Of a stretch of 64,000 nt of DNA, positions 20,348-42,028 are shown one piece after another. Source of the stretch: Zoogloeaceae bacterium G21618-S1 (GTDB taxonomy: Bacteria > Pseudomonadota > Gammaproteobacteria > Burkholderiales > Rhodocyclaceae); contig JAPWHF010000003.1 in NCBI GenBank assembly GCA_027214125.1, positions 248,001-312,000 of the forward strand, given 5' to 3'. Each line of letters opens with the position of its first letter. Position 1 is the stretch's first letter. The translations under genes and the position numbers were made by a program. The notes beneath the pieces are model-generated. The model saw nothing but the letters and a program-made list of their open reading frames with translations. It was not told the DNA's origin and searched no databases.

Positions 20348-20463
20348 AGTCAGCCCGGCGCGGACGACGGCGGGCGTAGGGAGCAAAAGGCAGTGGATGG
20401 CCTGATTGATGCCGTCTGAGAGAAACCAGCGCTTGGGTCTTTTGGGACGTCGGTGTGGGATTC

Positions 20464-20496
20464 GTAGCCCGGATGGAGCGCAGCGGAATCCGGGGT
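20464..20496. repeat. CCCGGAT-type palindromic repeat, single copy
   Basis: Reads GTAGCCCGGATGGAGCGCAG and continues to CCGGGG; it matches the arms at 7414-7539. It lies in the 230-base gap after the injection operon, which holds no other recognisable feature. Confidence 0.65.
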
Positions 20497-20577
20497 CAGT
20501 GGTCGATCAAGCGATGAATCCTTGGGGCGGCCCTGCGGGCCTTGTCCAGGCTAGGCTTTCTGGGGGGAAATTAAAAT

Positions 20578-21117
20578 CTATTCGGACGCATGCTCCACAG
20601 AGCCTTCGATGTCTATTGTGCTGCCGATCCCTGCAATTGCTCTGACAAGTTCACTTCTAGACTTTTGCTTCGCATCCCCATTCAGCCCTTCACACACGCT
20701 GTTTGCCAACAGGAATCGCTGCGTTCTATCCAATCGGTTTTGAAAATCAGACAACTGGATAGATGTTTTTCCATAAAGATAGAAGTTGATGCCAGCAATT
20801 ACCTCTATTAGCGATCCACTAATCAAGCTTACGACCGCTATATTTTGATCCTGCTGAGCCACTAAAAAAATTACGGAAGTCAGGAAAAAGCCGAAGCCAC
20901 CAATGGCTGCAGCTAACGCCCAGCGAAAACTCCTTTTTGCCTGGTCCAGAACGACGTTGTGGTAGATCGTTAATAACTGAATCTGAGAGGCAACAATTTC
21001 TTGAACTTTAGATGGGTCGGTTTCAAACAAACGCTTAATAGGCTCCAACTCGATGGTTAGTAGCCCATCTGAGCTGGTGATGTATTTAGGTTCCGTTGTG
21101 TATTGACCGTTTTCCAT
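20578..21117 (-). CDS. two-TM protein of the TRADD-N-associated membrane domain type
   Basis: A 179-residue protein starting at ATG 21117 (MENGQYTTEP); an ATG 54 bases upstream lies in repeat DNA and is less likely. A helical N-terminal segment (about 30-60) precedes YHNVVLDQAKRSFRWALAAA, a first membrane segment (to about 90) and a second (about 97-120), with a charged cytoplasmic tail (SIQLSDFQNRLDRTQRFLLA). This matches, from memory, the small two-TM domain described with TRADD-N modules in cyanobacterial and other conflict systems; no TRADD-N domain is evident here. It has lower GC than the flanks, consistent with recent acquisition. Confidence 0.6.
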   Translation of the reverse strand: MENGQYTTEPKYITSSDGLLTIELEPIKRLFETDPSKVQEIVASQIQLLTIYHNVVLDQAKRSFRWALAAAIGGFGFFLTSVIFLVAQQDQNIAVVSLISGSLIEVIAGINFYLYGKTSIQLSDFQNRLDRTQRFLLANSVCEGLNGDAKQKSRSELVRAIAGIGSTIDIEGSVEHASE

Positions 21118-21136
21118 TGTATTGCCTATGGTATCC

Positions 21137-21235
21137 GGGGGCCAGGTCTTGAAGTACGATATGTGTTGCATTTCAAGACCTGACCCCTAGGTTCGTAGGT
21201 GTTGCATTTCAAGACCTGACCCCTAGGTTCGTAGG
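21137..21235. repeat. GGTCTTGAA palindrome plus 2 x 36-base tandem repeat
   Basis: Two exact 36-base units begin TGTTGCATTTCAAGACCTGA at 21164 and 21200. The segment just upstream (GGCCAGGTCTTGAA, 21141-21154) is inverted relative to their ATTTCAAGACCTGACC core, so the block can form a hairpin. Related copies occur at 23639-23675 and 42468-42500. The remaining sequence up to 21323 shows nothing else. Confidence 0.75.
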
Positions 21236-21323
21236 TTCTTAAACGGGTAGAAGCACGGTGACGCGCTGATTGCCTGAGGGGAACTTTCGTCATGAGCCGC
21301 CGCACTGACCGACACCCCCATTC

Positions 21324-22025
21324 TCAATATGGGAGGTTGTACAAACGAAATATTTCTTGCTCTGCCTCTCTCGTCAGATTTTCTATGAGATTATCGAACC
21401 CCGGCGAGGAGATACTGTCTATGTTCAACTGCAAACTTAAAGCACGCAATCCAATCGACGCATCGCCCGTAGATATGTTGTAGGCAACTGAAGCAGATGC
21501 CACGGAAGCTGGCGCTGAAAGCGAGACTCCAACAGAAGCCGCCTTCTTATCGTTGACGCCAACTGTGACCCCTAGTCCACCACCAGGAGGTATCGTCAAA
21601 GTTGCCGAGTTTTCCTCCGTTTCCAAGTTTCTAGAAGCATACGAGCCGAAAGAATCAGTAATTGACACGCTTGTATCCACTCTAAGAATAGGTTCCCCTT
21701 CCGTGTATCTCATGAAAGCTTGCCCAACAGTTTCAGAGTCTCTCGCTGCATCAGGACCTTGTTCGGGACCCCAAGGCGGCGCGTCGCTGACTCGTTCCTC
21801 GACAGCCGCCTCTTCGCTATTTCGTGTGTTTGAAGGAAAAGCAGCATCCGGAGACGGAGAAAATGATAACCTGTCCGGTTCAGGAGTCTCGCGTTCATTG
21901 TTCGTTTCTGAGTTCTGCGCCGGGGTGATGAACTCTTCTACGTTTTCGACTACCCTTTTCGCTGCGTCCAACGATTCTTGGATCAAGAACATTAGCCAGC
22001 GCGCAAATTGATCTGCAAGGCTCAT
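21324..22025 (-). CDS. hypothetical protein, last gene of the lipoyl/TolC-repeat operon
   Basis: A 233-residue protein I do not recognise. Residues 1-32 form an amphipathic or membrane-associating helix (MSLADQFARWLMFLIQESLD). Residues 35-110 are acidic and Pro/Ser-rich, probably disordered. The C-terminal 110 residues are Gly/Ala/Ser-rich with alternating hydrophobics (GGGLGVTVGVNDKK, SVGVSLSAPASVASASVAYN), suggesting beta strands, and end in a helix (FDNLIENLTREAEQEIFRL). It follows the TolC-repeat-2 gene after 48 bases on the same strand and shares its lower GC, so I treat it as part of that operon. Confidence 0.55.
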   Translation of the reverse strand: MSLADQFARWLMFLIQESLDAAKRVVENVEEFITPAQNSETNNERETPEPDRLSFSPSPDAAFPSNTRNSEEAAVEERVSDAPPWGPEQGPDAARDSETVGQAFMRYTEGEPILRVDTSVSITDSFGSYASRNLETEENSATLTIPPGGGLGVTVGVNDKKAASVGVSLSAPASVASASVAYNISTGDASIGLRALSLQLNIDSISSPGFDNLIENLTREAEQEIFRLYNLPY

Positions 22026-22073
22026 ATATCTCTCAATTGGCTGTCAGACCGAGCATCTTCTTGTTGCACACGA

Positions 22074-22652
22074 TCAGCTTCCGATCGAAAGCAAGTAATC
22101 CCCAGCCTCGACAAACGAGTGAGGGCCCACAGCAAGGTCCTCAATTACTCCTTCCTTTGGGGCCCTAACGATTAACTCACGCAATCGCGCATTTAACCGA
22201 TCGCTTTCATTTTGATTCTGAAGTTCTACTTTCGCATGCATGTTCTTGCGAAAAGTCGTCATAGTTGGGAAGGCTGCGAGGTTCTTTATAGCTCCGGCTT
22301 TGGCGCTTTCGGCTGTGCGCAATGTTTTCTTTGCTAGCAGGACGTCAACAGCTGTCCGAGTCCCCATTTCGAACCCAGCTTCTATCGCCTCCAAGGCTGA
22401 ATCTGCGGCCTGTACCTGTTGTTTAGCCAAGTCGACTGCCAAGACTAGCAATTGCTCACGCCGAGCGATTTCTCTTGGCTCAAATCGAAATTCTTTGATC
22501 TTGTGCGCTTCGGCAGCAGCGGCCACCCGAGATAACTCCCTTTTTACCATTAGGTCATCGAAGACGATTAATGCCTCCCCAATCGCGACATTTTGCCCAA
22601 GCGAAACAGAAACCTTTGAAACGAAGGAGTCGAACGGCGCATACAACTTCAT
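22074..22652 (-). CDS. lipoyl-like protein containing a TolC repeat-2-like hairpin
   Basis: A 192-residue protein. Residues 1-30 and 160-192 (YAPFDSFVSKVSVSLGQNVA; IVRAPKEGVIEDLAVGPHSF) look like the two halves of a biotinyl-lipoyl domain as in HlyD-type adaptors. Between them lies a long coiled coil whose centre, EAGFEMGTRTAVDVL at 91-105, closely matches EAGYSVGTRTIVDVL of the second structural repeat of E. coli TolC (recalled from memory). There is no signal peptide or membrane segment. Its start overlaps the stop of the upstream partner (TAATG), so the pair is translationally coupled. The function is unknown; a membrane-spanning conduit or adaptor part is an inference. Confidence 0.7.
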   Translation of the reverse strand: MKLYAPFDSFVSKVSVSLGQNVAIGEALIVFDDLMVKRELSRVAAAAEAHKIKEFRFEPREIARREQLLVLAVDLAKQQVQAADSALEAIEAGFEMGTRTAVDVLLAKKTLRTAESAKAGAIKNLAAFPTMTTFRKNMHAKVELQNQNESDRLNARLRELIVRAPKEGVIEDLAVGPHSFVEAGDYLLSIGS

Positions 22653-23224
22653 TATTTAATCACTCCGAGCACCGTCCCCTTGCTAACGGGCATCATCGGA
22701 CGCAACGCATGCGAAATAATTCCTGCAGCCGAAGCGCGTATTTTTGAAAGCTCCAAGAATTTCTCGGCGAACCCTATTTCTTTGGAATGCTGGTCACGAA
22801 ATAACTCTATTTGCTTTTTCCCGATCTCTACAGCCTTCTTAAACTCTCTCAGCGCTTCTTCGGCATTCAGTATTTTGGCACGAGCACTTAACGGCCCAAT
22901 TTTTGCTTCCAAGACATCAGTTATCGCTATCAGACCAACATCGAATCTGGCCTGCGCCTGATCCAAAAATCTTTGCGCATGAGCTTCCTCAGCCTTGGCA
23001 GCCGACAAATCCGACTCAAGCTTTTTGAGCTCTATCCCTACCATTTCGTCTGAAAACAGCACGCCATGATCATCGACAATCGCTGCCAAAGTGTGTAACT
23101 TTTTGAGAGACGCTGACTCCTCCGTTGTAGTCAGTTTGAAAAGCTCTTGCCCGATGATCACGGACTCACCGTCACCGATTAACACTTCTGAAATATACGC
23201 ATTCTTTGGACAGCGTATCTCCAT
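22652..23224 (-). CDS. lipoyl-like protein containing a TolC repeat-1-like hairpin
   Basis: A 190-residue protein. The ATG at 23224 follows GGAGGAATAGGC and is preferred over an upstream in-frame ATG. Lipoyl-like halves lie at about 1-31 (CPKNAYISEVLIGDGESVII) and 162-190 (IRASAAGIISHALRPMMPVS). The intervening coiled coil contains RFDVGLIAITDV at 93-104, nearly identical to RFNVGLVAITDV of the first structural repeat of E. coli TolC (from memory). So this gene and its downstream partner each carry a different one of TolC's two repeats. It has no export signal. It lies 34 bases after a single-TM protein gene and overlaps the next gene by 1 base. Confidence 0.7.
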   Translation of the reverse strand: MEIRCPKNAYISEVLIGDGESVIIGQELFKLTTTEESASLKKLHTLAAIVDDHGVLFSDEMVGIELKKLESDLSAAKAEEAHAQRFLDQAQARFDVGLIAITDVLEAKIGPLSARAKILNAEEALREFKKAVEIGKKQIELFRDQHSKEIGFAEKFLELSKIRASAAGIISHALRPMMPVSKGTVLGVIK

Positions 23225-23258
23225 GCCTATTCCTCCGAATTTTCGGCAGCAGACTAGA

Positions 23259-23477
23259 TTAGTTAATCGACGAACCCGTATTACCTTGGCTCTGATGTAT
23301 GCCGACAACCTCTCCGATATTTGCTTCTGAACGGACCACCCGATCGTTGGCTTTATGGATGTTCCAAGCGAGTATCGCCAATACCACCAGAGCGAAACCT
23401 ATCGCAAACTTCGATTGTGCGATCGCTTTCCAAGAAGTGAAACCTTGGCGCTGAATTTCCTTCGTTATTCGATCCAT
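23259..23477 (-). CDS. small single-pass membrane protein heading the lipoyl/TolC-repeat operon
   Basis: A 72-residue protein: a charged N-terminus (MDRITKEIQRQGFTSWKAIA), one membrane segment at about 23-40 (KFAIGFALVVLAILAWNI), then about 30 polar residues. The arrangement resembles the N-terminal anchor of an HlyD-family adaptor separated from its lipoyl part. It precedes the TolC-repeat-1/lipoyl gene by 34 bases on the same strand, so it may anchor the two soluble partners. No homologue is recognised. It is presumably the first gene of the operon. Confidence 0.6.
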   Translation of the reverse strand: MDRITKEIQRQGFTSWKAIAQSKFAIGFALVVLAILAWNIHKANDRVVRSEANIGEVVGIHQSQGNTGSSIN

Positions 23478-23638
23478 GCGTTTTTGGCGCTAACGACGCT
23501 GTAGAAAAACCCGTTTCCGGGCCGAGTCGATCTTCCCGACGTTGGCCGGTGCGGTTGAATTCGTCATCCGTTCAGTCCATTCGCTTCGGCATCGTCCTGC
23601 CTTGATTCATCGATCCGCCCAAAGGGCCAAGGAACAAT

Positions 23639-23675
23639 CGGGGTCAGGTCTTGAAATCCAACATTCTGCATCGCC
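23639..23675. repeat. GGGGTCAGGTCTTGAA repeat bounding the accessory island
   Basis: Reads GGGGTCAGGTCTTGAAATCC and then AACATTCTGCATCG, the inverted relative of the units at 21164-21235. The whole gap 23478-23946 holds this repeat, then GC-rich non-coding sequence; I see no gene in it. Confidence 0.65.
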
Positions 23676-23946
23676 AACAACTGGACATCTCCTGATCCCC
23701 GGCTGCATGAAGGTCCGACCCGGCAGAACGTAAGCATACTCCCGAAATGCATGATTTCGTAGCGGGCGCGAGGGGCTCTTGCTGCATCCGTCTCGGATGC
23801 AATCAACCGGCGCGCGTTCGCGTCGGGTCTTGGGTGCGAAGCGCCAAGGCGGTGGGGTGGGACTCTCCGGGGCACCGTTCCCGGCGTCGGGCCTGCGGTC
23901 CTCGGCCGGGCTACGCGGGGCTGCGTGGTTGCGCCCGCCGCCGGCC

Positions 23947-40267: not shown

Positions 40268-42028
40268 ATGTCAGCAGAGCCAACCACTTGGCAAGCAGCA
40301 CTCGAAGCCCGCGATGATTTAGCGCAGTATGGAGACAACCGGCTCGGGCTCTTCGCGCTCGAGCTACGCTTTTCTCTGGATGATATTCATAGCGTTGCGG
40401 CAGAGTCGGTGACCGATGGAAGTGATGATAAAAAATGCGATCTCATATTCATTGATCGTGAAGAGGGGGTGGCTGTTGTTGCGCAGTGCTATTTTTGTGA
40501 CAAAGATAAGCGAAGCGCCCCCGCCAACAAGGCCTCAGATATAAATACAGCTGTCGCTTGGCTTTTACAAAGAGATGTTGCGGAGCTTCCAGAGCGCCTC
40601 CGTTCAGCTGCTACAGAATTGAGGTCGGCCATTTCTGATGGAGACATTCGACGTTTTGAAGCATGGTATGTGCACAACTTACCTGAGTCGGCCAACGTAG
40701 AAGATGAGCTTTCGACAGTAGCAGCAACAGCAAGAACAACGATTGAAGCATTGCATCCCACGTCAAAAGTGGTTGTTTCAACGTCTGAGATAGGGAGGGA
40801 TAAGATTGAATCTTGGTATCTCGAAACTCTCTCCCCTATACTTGTGAATGAAGAAATAAAAATAGACATTGAATCTGGGTTTTCGATAAAAACTGAGAAC
40901 TGGAACGCGTATGTGACTGCAATTCCCGCTCGGGTACTTCATCGTCTCTATGCCAAAAATAAAACACGCCTATTTTCTGCTAACGTTCGAGACTATCTGG
41001 GTTCTAGAAATAGTGATGTAAACATAAACAGTGGGATAAAGCGAACGGCTCAATCCTCGCCAGAGGATTTTTGGGTTTTTAATAACGGCATTACTGTTTT
41101 AACTCATCACTTCGAAGAAATTGTTGGAAAATCTCGTCGCCAGCTATTGGTTCGCGGAATATCAATTGTTAATGGTGCTCAGACCACGGGTGCAATTGGA
41201 TCTCTTCCTAAATCACCAGATTTATCGGCACTCGTCCCTGCCCGCTTTGTTCAAACAGCAAAGCCAGAGCTTATTTATGACATTATTCAATATAATAACA
41301 GCCAAAATAAGGTAACCGCGTCAGATTTTCGCAGTACAGATCGAATTCAAAAGCGGCTTCGAGACGAAGTTGCAGCTATTCCAAATGCGAAATATGAAGG
41401 TGGACGCCGAGGTGGGCATAAGGATGTGATTGAGAGAAACAAGAATCTGCTTCCTTCGTACACGGTTGGACAGGCCCTAGCTGCATATAATCAGGATCCA
41501 CTGACCGCGTACAACCTTAAAAGCGAGATCTGGATTTCCGACAAAACATATTCGCGATTTTTCAACGACGATACGACTGGAGCGCATCTTGTGCTTTGTT
41601 ATTCGTTGTTGAGATCGGTCGAGGAGGCTAAACAAACCTTAGTAGCTAAATCGAAAATAGAAACCGAACTAACGTTACAAGAGGATCAACTTCTATCGTA
41701 TTTTCGGCATAGGGGTTCGACATACCTGTTTGTCTCGGCCATTGCTGCATGCATGGAGACATTTCTCGGTAAGCGCATCGCTGTTCCTCAGCGGGTTTCG
41801 TTTGGGGTGAAAACACCGCCGAAGCAGGCCGCGCAGCATTGGGGGGATGTCGTCAAAGTGGTTTCCCCCTTCTGCCAACAACTCGTTGACGCGCTGAGCG
41901 ACGGCCTAAAGAGCAATGAGCGCGCGCAGAAGGCCATAGGGACGTTCCGAAGCCTCGTTCAAGCAACGTCAGGCGCAAATTCGGAAACATATCGGAAATT
42001 TGCTCGGTCGGTTGTCGTTTCGAAGTAA
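40268..42028 (+). CDS. AIPR-family phage defence protein
   Basis: A 586-residue protein of the AIPR (abortive infection phage resistance) family. The core motifs are RLFSANVRDYLGSRNSDVN, FWVFNNGITVLT and SIVNGAQTTGAIGSLP, followed by DIIQYNNSQNKVTASDF. The N-terminal 100 residues resemble a PD-(D/E)xK nuclease fold: D58 in KKCDLIFI, then VVAQCYF, where the usual QxK is Q73-C-Y, so the catalytic Lys appears replaced. GC content is far below that of the flanking genes, indicating transfer. It stands alone without restriction-modification partners. The 287-base AT-rich leader also holds a 50-codon open frame (40169-40321) overlapping the start, unproven. Confidence 0.85.
   Translation: MSAEPTTWQAALEARDDLAQYGDNRLGLFALELRFSLDDIHSVAAESVTDGSDDKKCDLIFIDREEGVAVVAQCYFCDKDKRSAPANKASDINTAVAWLLQRDVAELPERLRSAATELRSAISDGDIRRFEAWYVHNLPESANVEDELSTVAATARTTIEALHPTSKVVVSTSEIGRDKIESWYLETLSPILVNEEIKIDIESGFSIKTENWNAYVTAIPARVLHRLYAKNKTRLFSANVRDYLGSRNSDVNINSGIKRTAQSSPEDFWVFNNGITVLTHHFEEIVGKSRRQLLVRGISIVNGAQTTGAIGSLPKSPDLSALVPARFVQTAKPELIYDIIQYNNSQNKVTASDFRSTDRIQKRLRDEVAAIPNAKYEGGRRGGHKDVIERNKNLLPSYTVGQALAAYNQDPLTAYNLKSEIWISDKTYSRFFNDDTTGAHLVLCYSLLRSVEEAKQTLVAKSKIETELTLQEDQLLSYFRHRGSTYLFVSAIAACMETFLGKRIAVPQRVSFGVKTPPKQAAQHWGDVVKVVSPFCQQLVDALSDGLKSNERAQKAIGTFRSLVQATSGANSETYRKFARSVVVSK

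Follow-up and report, generated by a model that had tools for sequence, protein, structure and literature searches.

The question raised by the window analysed here, a stretch of 64,000 nucleotides from Zoogloeaceae bacterium G21618-S1 (contig JAPWHF010000003.1, positions 248,001 to 312,000), is why two adjacent small genes should each carry one of the two non-identical helical repeats of the channel protein TolC inside a protein that otherwise resembles a secretion adaptor. The genes, which we call A (22652..23224, 190 aa) and B (22074..22652, 192 aa), lie on the minus strand, as do all of their features given below, and a first-pass annotation had correctly placed both proteins and their motifs. 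Judged from their sequences, A and B are adaptor-like proteins with a coiled-coil hairpin that carries the tip of TolC repeat 1 in A and the tip of TolC repeat 2 in B; the hairpin of B is flanked at both ends by halves of a HlyD-type lipoyl domain, and that of A by a lipoyl-like N-terminal half and a C-terminus that is perhaps lipoyl-like. This predicted architecture is both real and unusual. What the pair does is a separate matter, on which our proposals below are more guarded.

Several lines of evidence establish the likeness to TolC. In A, residues 66-132 (22829..23029) align with repeat 1 of the TolC of locus L123 and contain the tip motif RFDVGLIAITDV at residues 93-104 (22913..22948), in which T102 and D103 correspond to T152 and D153 of TolC. 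In B, residues 72-121 (22290..22439) align with repeat 2 of the TolC of locus L112 and contain the tip motif EAGFEMGTRTAVDVL at residues 91-105 (22338..22382), in which R99 aligns with R367 and D103 with D371; TolC residue numbers here are taken from phmmer alignments of A and B to TolC chains in the PDB. The tip loops themselves are TolC-like (GLIAITDV and GTRTAVDVL). Pfam OEP (PF02321) exceeds its gathering score of 22 in both proteins, with 27.8 bits for A (residues 66-127) and 26.2 bits for B (residues 73-125), over matches that span only about 53-62 of the 187 model positions. TolC models are also the top NCBIfam matches for A and B, far under the full-length cut-offs of those models. In phmmer searches against the PDB, B aligns with TolC 338-392, with an E of 5e-6 against the E. 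coli chain, and A aligns with TolC 123-186 at a whole-sequence E of about 1e-6 that is summed over two stretches, which in the chain shown have E values of 0.0075 (repeat 1) and 1.8 (repeat 2).

To separate the repeats, we used one profile per TolC repeat, R1 and R2, built from 79 TolCs. A scores 51.4 bits on R1 and 11.8 on R2, and B scores 56.0 on R2, whereas the highest scores among 30 adaptor frames of relatives, of which 29 match HlyD_3, are 7.2 on R1 and 2.6 on R2, and those among 2000 shuffles are 7.0 and 6.4. The 79 TolCs were retrieved by a pattern that combined B with TolC repeat 2; R2 may for this reason favour B-like tips, and about eight of its 79 segments are out of register; R1 is unaffected by this bias. 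Among 118 TolC rows having both repeats (two genes being counted twice), A is nearer to R1 in every row and B is nearer to R2 in every row. The proposal that the two TolC repeats are divided between A and B, each at the position of an adaptor hairpin, is thus borne out, as is a similarity to TolC beyond chance, given the OEP, phmmer, profile and row comparisons together. A convergent or chance tip motif was considered and rejected, since the repeat profiles set A and B apart from all 30 adaptor frames and all 2000 shuffles; OEP at E values up to 1 does occur in six of the 30 adaptor frames, the best at 0.0031.

The tips correspond to the periplasmic tips of a gammaproteobacterial TolC; their more exact source is less clearly indicated. 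Among the TolCs with the top summed score are records that bear the labels Rhodanobacteraceae and Lysobacteraceae (L123 and L116). The genome's own channel of the TolC type, on contig C8, resembles A and B distinctly less (scores of 73 and 65, where L123 has 130 and 117). The similarity of A to R1 and that of B to R2 are uncorrelated across TolCs (rho -0.15, p 0.11); therefore, one donor gene for both tips is not shown.

The adaptor-like ends are firmer in B than in A. B passes Pfam HlyD_3 (30.5 bits, cut-off 22.2) in two stretches, the best at residues 162-190 (22083..22169), which form its C-terminal lipoyl-like half. Its N-terminal half (residues 1-33; 22554..22652) scores 12.8 bits at residues 11-33 on a half-lipoyl profile, against 5.1 for the best of 2000 shuffles. 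On the corresponding profile the C half of B scores 4.6 bits, under the best shuffle at 6.9, and for this reason its lipoyl assignment rests on Pfam; both half-profiles were built from 30 rows of adaptors. A has no HlyD_3 match, and neither of its halves is significant by the direct half-lipoyl profiles (3.1 bits for the N half and -0.7 for the C half at the expected place). It does match the NCBIfam type I HlyD model over residues 6-168 with 30.9 bits, far below the cut-off of 208.65. A and B are paralogues, related over their whole length (37 bits, 23% identity) with both frames intact; taken by part, their N halves are related (none of 5000 shuffles reaches the score), as are their middles (26 of 5000), and their C ends compared alone show no significant relation (593 of 5000). 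The N half of A is therefore supported as probably lipoyl-like through its relation to B, and the lipoyl nature of its C-terminus is plausible by position. Lipoyl-like halves had been assigned to both ends of both proteins; this holds for B and, through B, for the N half of A, but the C half of A is weaker than was assumed.

Neither protein continues into the rest of an adaptor. A and B end at the C-terminal lipoyl-like stretch, and the beta-barrel and membrane-proximal domains are absent. The adaptor docking motif RxxxLxxxxxx[ST] (RLS/RLT), which occurs somewhere in 13 of the 30 adaptor frames, is likewise absent from A and B. AlphaFold2, run with only two alignment rows, predicts a hairpin in both proteins with its turn at residues 96-100, that is, at the TolC tip; confidence is good near the tip (ten-residue means of about 86-96) and low at the ends. 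Foldseek places EmrA and HlyD first for A, with a best E of 6.5e-4 and a large root mean square deviation. For B it places TolC first at E values that are not significant (0.036 and up), although one TolC chain (9tg4_A) can be overlaid on it across 70 columns, at 0.9 A and 37% identity. A VIA-align comparison of A returned generic coiled-coil matches only.

A and B are the middle genes of a minus-strand unit of four, in the order 72-aa protein, A, B, 233-aa protein. The unit begins with the 72-aa protein (23259..23477), for which hydropathy predicts a single transmembrane segment at about residues 18-40 (2.07 over 19 residues) and searches of Pfam and NCBIfam gave no match. It ends with the 233-aa protein (21324..22025), preceded by GAGAG ahead of its ATG, for which Pfam, NCBIfam, PADLOC and PHROG gave nothing within the limits applied, a plasmid search gave no match and the PDB gave none better than E 0.4. 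The ATG of A is preceded by a Shine-Dalgarno-like GGAGGA (23231..23236), and the start of B falls within the stop of A in a TAATG overlap, a coupling which suggests that the two proteins would be made in matched amounts. With these signals the assembled sequence gives no sign of a frameshift that would rejoin A and B, in keeping with their description as two separate genes. The guanine plus cytosine (GC) content by codon position follows a coding-like order in both, GC1 > GC3 > GC2, the values for A being computed on a longer 218-aa frame from an upstream TTG. By hydropathy alone, as no signal-peptide program was used, neither A nor B has a signal peptide or a transmembrane segment, and the 233-aa protein has no hydrophobic export signal; a transmembrane segment is found on the separate 72-aa protein. 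The first-pass annotation had likewise reported that A and B lack a signal peptide and that the 72-aa protein has a single transmembrane segment. The possibility that the 72-aa protein is a detached adaptor N-terminus found no support in phmmer searches against the fetched loci.

The annotation had also suggested looking for co-occurring pairs in other genomes, and here the outcome was negative. In searches of genome contigs, viral contigs, plasmids and genome samples, which did not extend to metagenomes and were not exhaustive, the A/B pair was found in one genome only. Genome contigs searched with B gave 90 stretches, none of them a relative. With B plus TolC repeat 2 there were at least 594 stretches and at least 554 relatives, of which the best 80 were without exception TolC frames. 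In 79 of these a single frame of 446-627 aa holds both tips, and the remaining one (246 aa, one tip) begins at the edge of its locus. Viral contigs yielded no confirmed second pair. On plasmids, one query returned nine records, eight annotated as tolC and one an unannotated place in Aeromonas, and another returned ten, eight annotated as tolC and two unannotated (Aeromonas and Proteus); no place in the plasmid searches reached 80% query coverage.

The genome samples, which overlap and hold a few hundred species each, tell the same story. Within the family (297 genomes), B matches at E <=0.001 in nine other genomes, in frames of 394-620 aa, and A in two others, in frames of 354 and 305 aa; among the matches listed the frames look like adaptors or TolC, apart from the 305-aa one, which is a partial match. 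Within the order (399 genomes), B at E 1e-6 finds its own genome alone. In the class (369 genomes), 283 genomes match an A+B profile at E 0.001, the best other among the matches listed scoring 41.6 bits, against 340.8 for B and 335.6 for A. In the phylum (398 genomes), A at E 1e-6 finds 19 others, in frames of 458-642 aa. One candidate for a TolC-tipped adaptor intermediate, the 367-aa frame of locus L055, follows the A+B profile along almost its whole length with 37 bits and scores just 6.6 and 2.4 bits on the TolC tip profiles; it looks like an ordinary adaptor. A natural adaptor with TolC tips was not found in the literature either, by a search that had little reach into subscription papers.

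The unit lies at a variable site. Its GC content is 49.5%, against 65.7% in the window outside 20401-23940, and it sits between the last gene behind a cluster for an extracellular contractile injection system (eCIS) and a transporter of the CitMHS/Na-sulphate-symporter type. Two tandem plus-strand copies of a 24-base repeat (21164..21187 and 21200..21223) lie to its left, and an inverted copy that is 95.8% identical over 24 bases (23640..23663, minus strand) lies to its right. The 17-base core of this repeat has five exact copies in the genome, three of them around the unit, and the repeat is also present in loci L104 and L105 of relatives; it is possibly a cassette boundary or an element of the REP (repetitive extragenic palindromic) type. 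Six same-genus genomes were read across the site (window 20350-23940). Five of them (L102, L103, L104, L105 and L108) hold other genes with 41-53% GC, including a TerB with zinc ribbon in L102 and a coiled-coil frame at the contig end in L108, and the sixth (L106) has just 379 bases with 70% GC. Two further loci, L109 and L110, have different, GC-rich genes past the eCIS end. Several of the variable-site genes in relatives have no match at all.

Other features of the neighbourhood are recorded here in their own right. The eCIS cluster (window 257-20347) encodes two eCIS_core proteins, Phage_base_V, gp25, two Baseplate_J proteins and DUF6519, and a tube-like protein whose match is below cut-off. 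A 197-aa protein with two transmembrane segments (window 20578-21171) carries a CyanoTRADDas_TM domain (E 2.2e-15), a domain that stems from work on bacterial conflict systems; its gene, left of the repeat, was excluded from the unit because it is also present in L105 at 91%. PADLOC found no defence-system match among the five proteins of the low-GC stretch. One variable-site gene of a relative (L105:1947-2630) has a PEP-CTERM-like look without Pfam support. Farther along the window, a low-GC frame of 586 aa (40268-42028, GC3 0.42) has an AIPR domain (107.1 bits, cut-off 25), AIPR being an abortive-infection phage-resistance family.

What, then, might such a pair do? We propose that A and B form a mixed ring that imitates the entrance of TolC and docks with adaptors, an idea that we regard as quite possible, if somewhat short of probable. 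The two proteins would take alternating positions in a single ring, with A3B3 as the simplest form, since the residues by which TolC neighbours are locked together are divided correctly between them, T152 and D153 having their counterparts in A (T102 and D103) and R367 in B (R99). According to a review (PMC8277102), TolC is closed by two bonds between protomers, D153-R367 and T152-R367, and D153-Y362 is a bond within one protomer; we infer that an A/B ring could restore such locks across two chains. The counterpart of Y362 is F94 in B, and phenylalanine occupies that position in 37 of the 79 fetched TolCs. Set on its lipoyl base, the ring would reproduce the closed entrance of TolC, and it would make tip-to-tip contact with the hairpins of common efflux-pump or type I secretion adaptors, which it would likely cap, compete for or tune. 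The 72-aa membrane protein might anchor the complex or help it to reach the membrane. A laboratory-made hybrid, the MacA-TolC-alpha hybrid-dimer considered below, binds MacA and AcrA in this way, and the lack of the adaptor docking motif in A and B and their TAATG coupling also count in favour of the proposal. The fuller statement, that this is a natural TolC mimic borne on a mobile cassette, a two-gene ring that docks on efflux or type I adaptors and blocks or retunes them, is tentative and on balance doubtful. Assembly, docking and localisation of A and B are all inferred.

Some observations weigh against this proposal. Chief among them is the absent export signal in A and B, which makes any role in the periplasm truly hard to account for. 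Moreover, the lock residues belong to the conserved tip of TolC anyway. In addition, other TolC sites differ, Q136 being replaced by F86 in A and D374 by L106 in B.

The missing export signal bears directly on the alternative that A and B are expressed and remain in the cytosol or at the inner membrane with the 72-aa protein, the TolC hairpins serving as a matched coiled-coil pair for a heteromeric scaffold that never contacts an adaptor. We consider this rather unlikely, but it must be taken seriously: A, B and the 233-aa protein all lack a hydrophobic export signal, the unit includes a small transmembrane protein, and the R1 and R2 tips pair in TolC according to the relevant passage of PMC8277102, so they could provide a heteromeric pairing module. 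It leaves unexplained why the tip loop, too, follows TolC beyond the helix-packing positions, a match that plain oligomerisation does not need. Alternatively, the pair could be a recent functionless chimera, in which pieces of tolC and adaptor genes recombined within an accessory cassette and persisted by chance. A single occurrence in the searches made and a low-GC cassette at a variable site are what such an origin would leave behind; on the other hand, chance would hardly produce two independent grafts at the hairpin position that bear a different repeat each, the intact frames, ribosome-binding sites, TAATG coupling and coding GC pattern speak for genes in use, and an identity of 23% between A and B argues for long divergence with the architecture kept. 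On these grounds we judge a chimera without function unlikely.

The position of the unit behind the last genes of the eCIS cluster, at a site that holds differing low-GC genes in relatives, invites the further thought that the eCIS next door carries A and B as cargo to block the adaptors of efflux or type I pumps in rival cells. Cargo of an eCIS needs no Sec signal. Nevertheless, position is all that supports this explanation and the other genes at the site have no toxin-like match, which leaves it improbable. The least credible explanation, one that we give hardly any weight, is that a single ordinary adaptor or TolC gene was split by an assembly or frameshift error. The gene order, anchor (the 72-aa transmembrane protein), lipoyl-hairpin, lipoyl-hairpin, might hint at it, but A and B each have a ribosome-binding site and a start of their own, lipoyl halves flanking R1 and R2 tips would not occur in an ordinary TolC or adaptor, and the TolC-type channels of this genome lie elsewhere, for example on contig C8.

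Tip-to-tip docking between adaptors and TolC has been studied with laboratory chimeras in which an adaptor bears TolC tips, and here a genome holds a like design, its two TolC repeats on separate adaptor-like chains. If A and B do bind adaptors, they would act on tripartite pumps as a naturally occurring protein inhibitor or regulator, and they would offer a genetic test of which tip residues are sufficient for docking. Even if the pair were functionless, it would represent a rare exchange of modules between the partners of one interface.

Compared with TolC and other outer membrane factors of the OEP family, A and B share the tip hairpins, which in A amount to about 65 residues from repeat 1 and in B to about 50 from repeat 2; against TolC segments taken in sets of six rows, their identity is 39-51%. 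They differ in that the repeats are on two chains of 190 and 192 aa, whereas TolC has both in one chain of about 430 to more than 500 residues, in that lipoyl-like ends stand where TolC has the rest of its channel, and in that they lack the outer-membrane beta-barrel segment and, by hydropathy, a signal peptide. With HlyD and EmrA adaptors B has in common the lipoyl halves around a coiled-coil hairpin, with HlyD_3 above its cut-off; A shares the hairpin and probably a lipoyl-like N half, and EmrA and HlyD lead its Foldseek matches. Unlike those adaptors, A and B have neither a transmembrane segment nor a signal by hydropathy, they have TolC tips in place of the docking motif, and 190 aa leaves no space for the beta-barrel and membrane-proximal domains.

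One close parallel is artificial. The construction of the hybrid-dimer is reportedly that of Xu et al. in 2011, and the "dimer" of MacA-TolC-alpha is said to join both TolC repeats. It consists of an adaptor scaffold, from Actinobacillus MacA, with a TolC alpha-barrel tip, the same combination that we see in A and B. As described in the part of Lee et al. 2012 (PMC3391258) that concerns it, the construct carries a 24-residue TolC tip and binds MacA and AcrA, which is said there to reflect functional TolC binding. The hybrid was made in the laboratory, whereas A and B are natural, occupy two genes and have about 50-65 TolC-like residues each; by this analogy, they look like a natural version of the same idea. 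Among natural systems, TriA and TriB of TriABC are likewise encoded by two adaptor genes in one operon (PMC8277102), but the A/B unit has no transporter gene, and the passage on TriA and TriB names no TolC tips.
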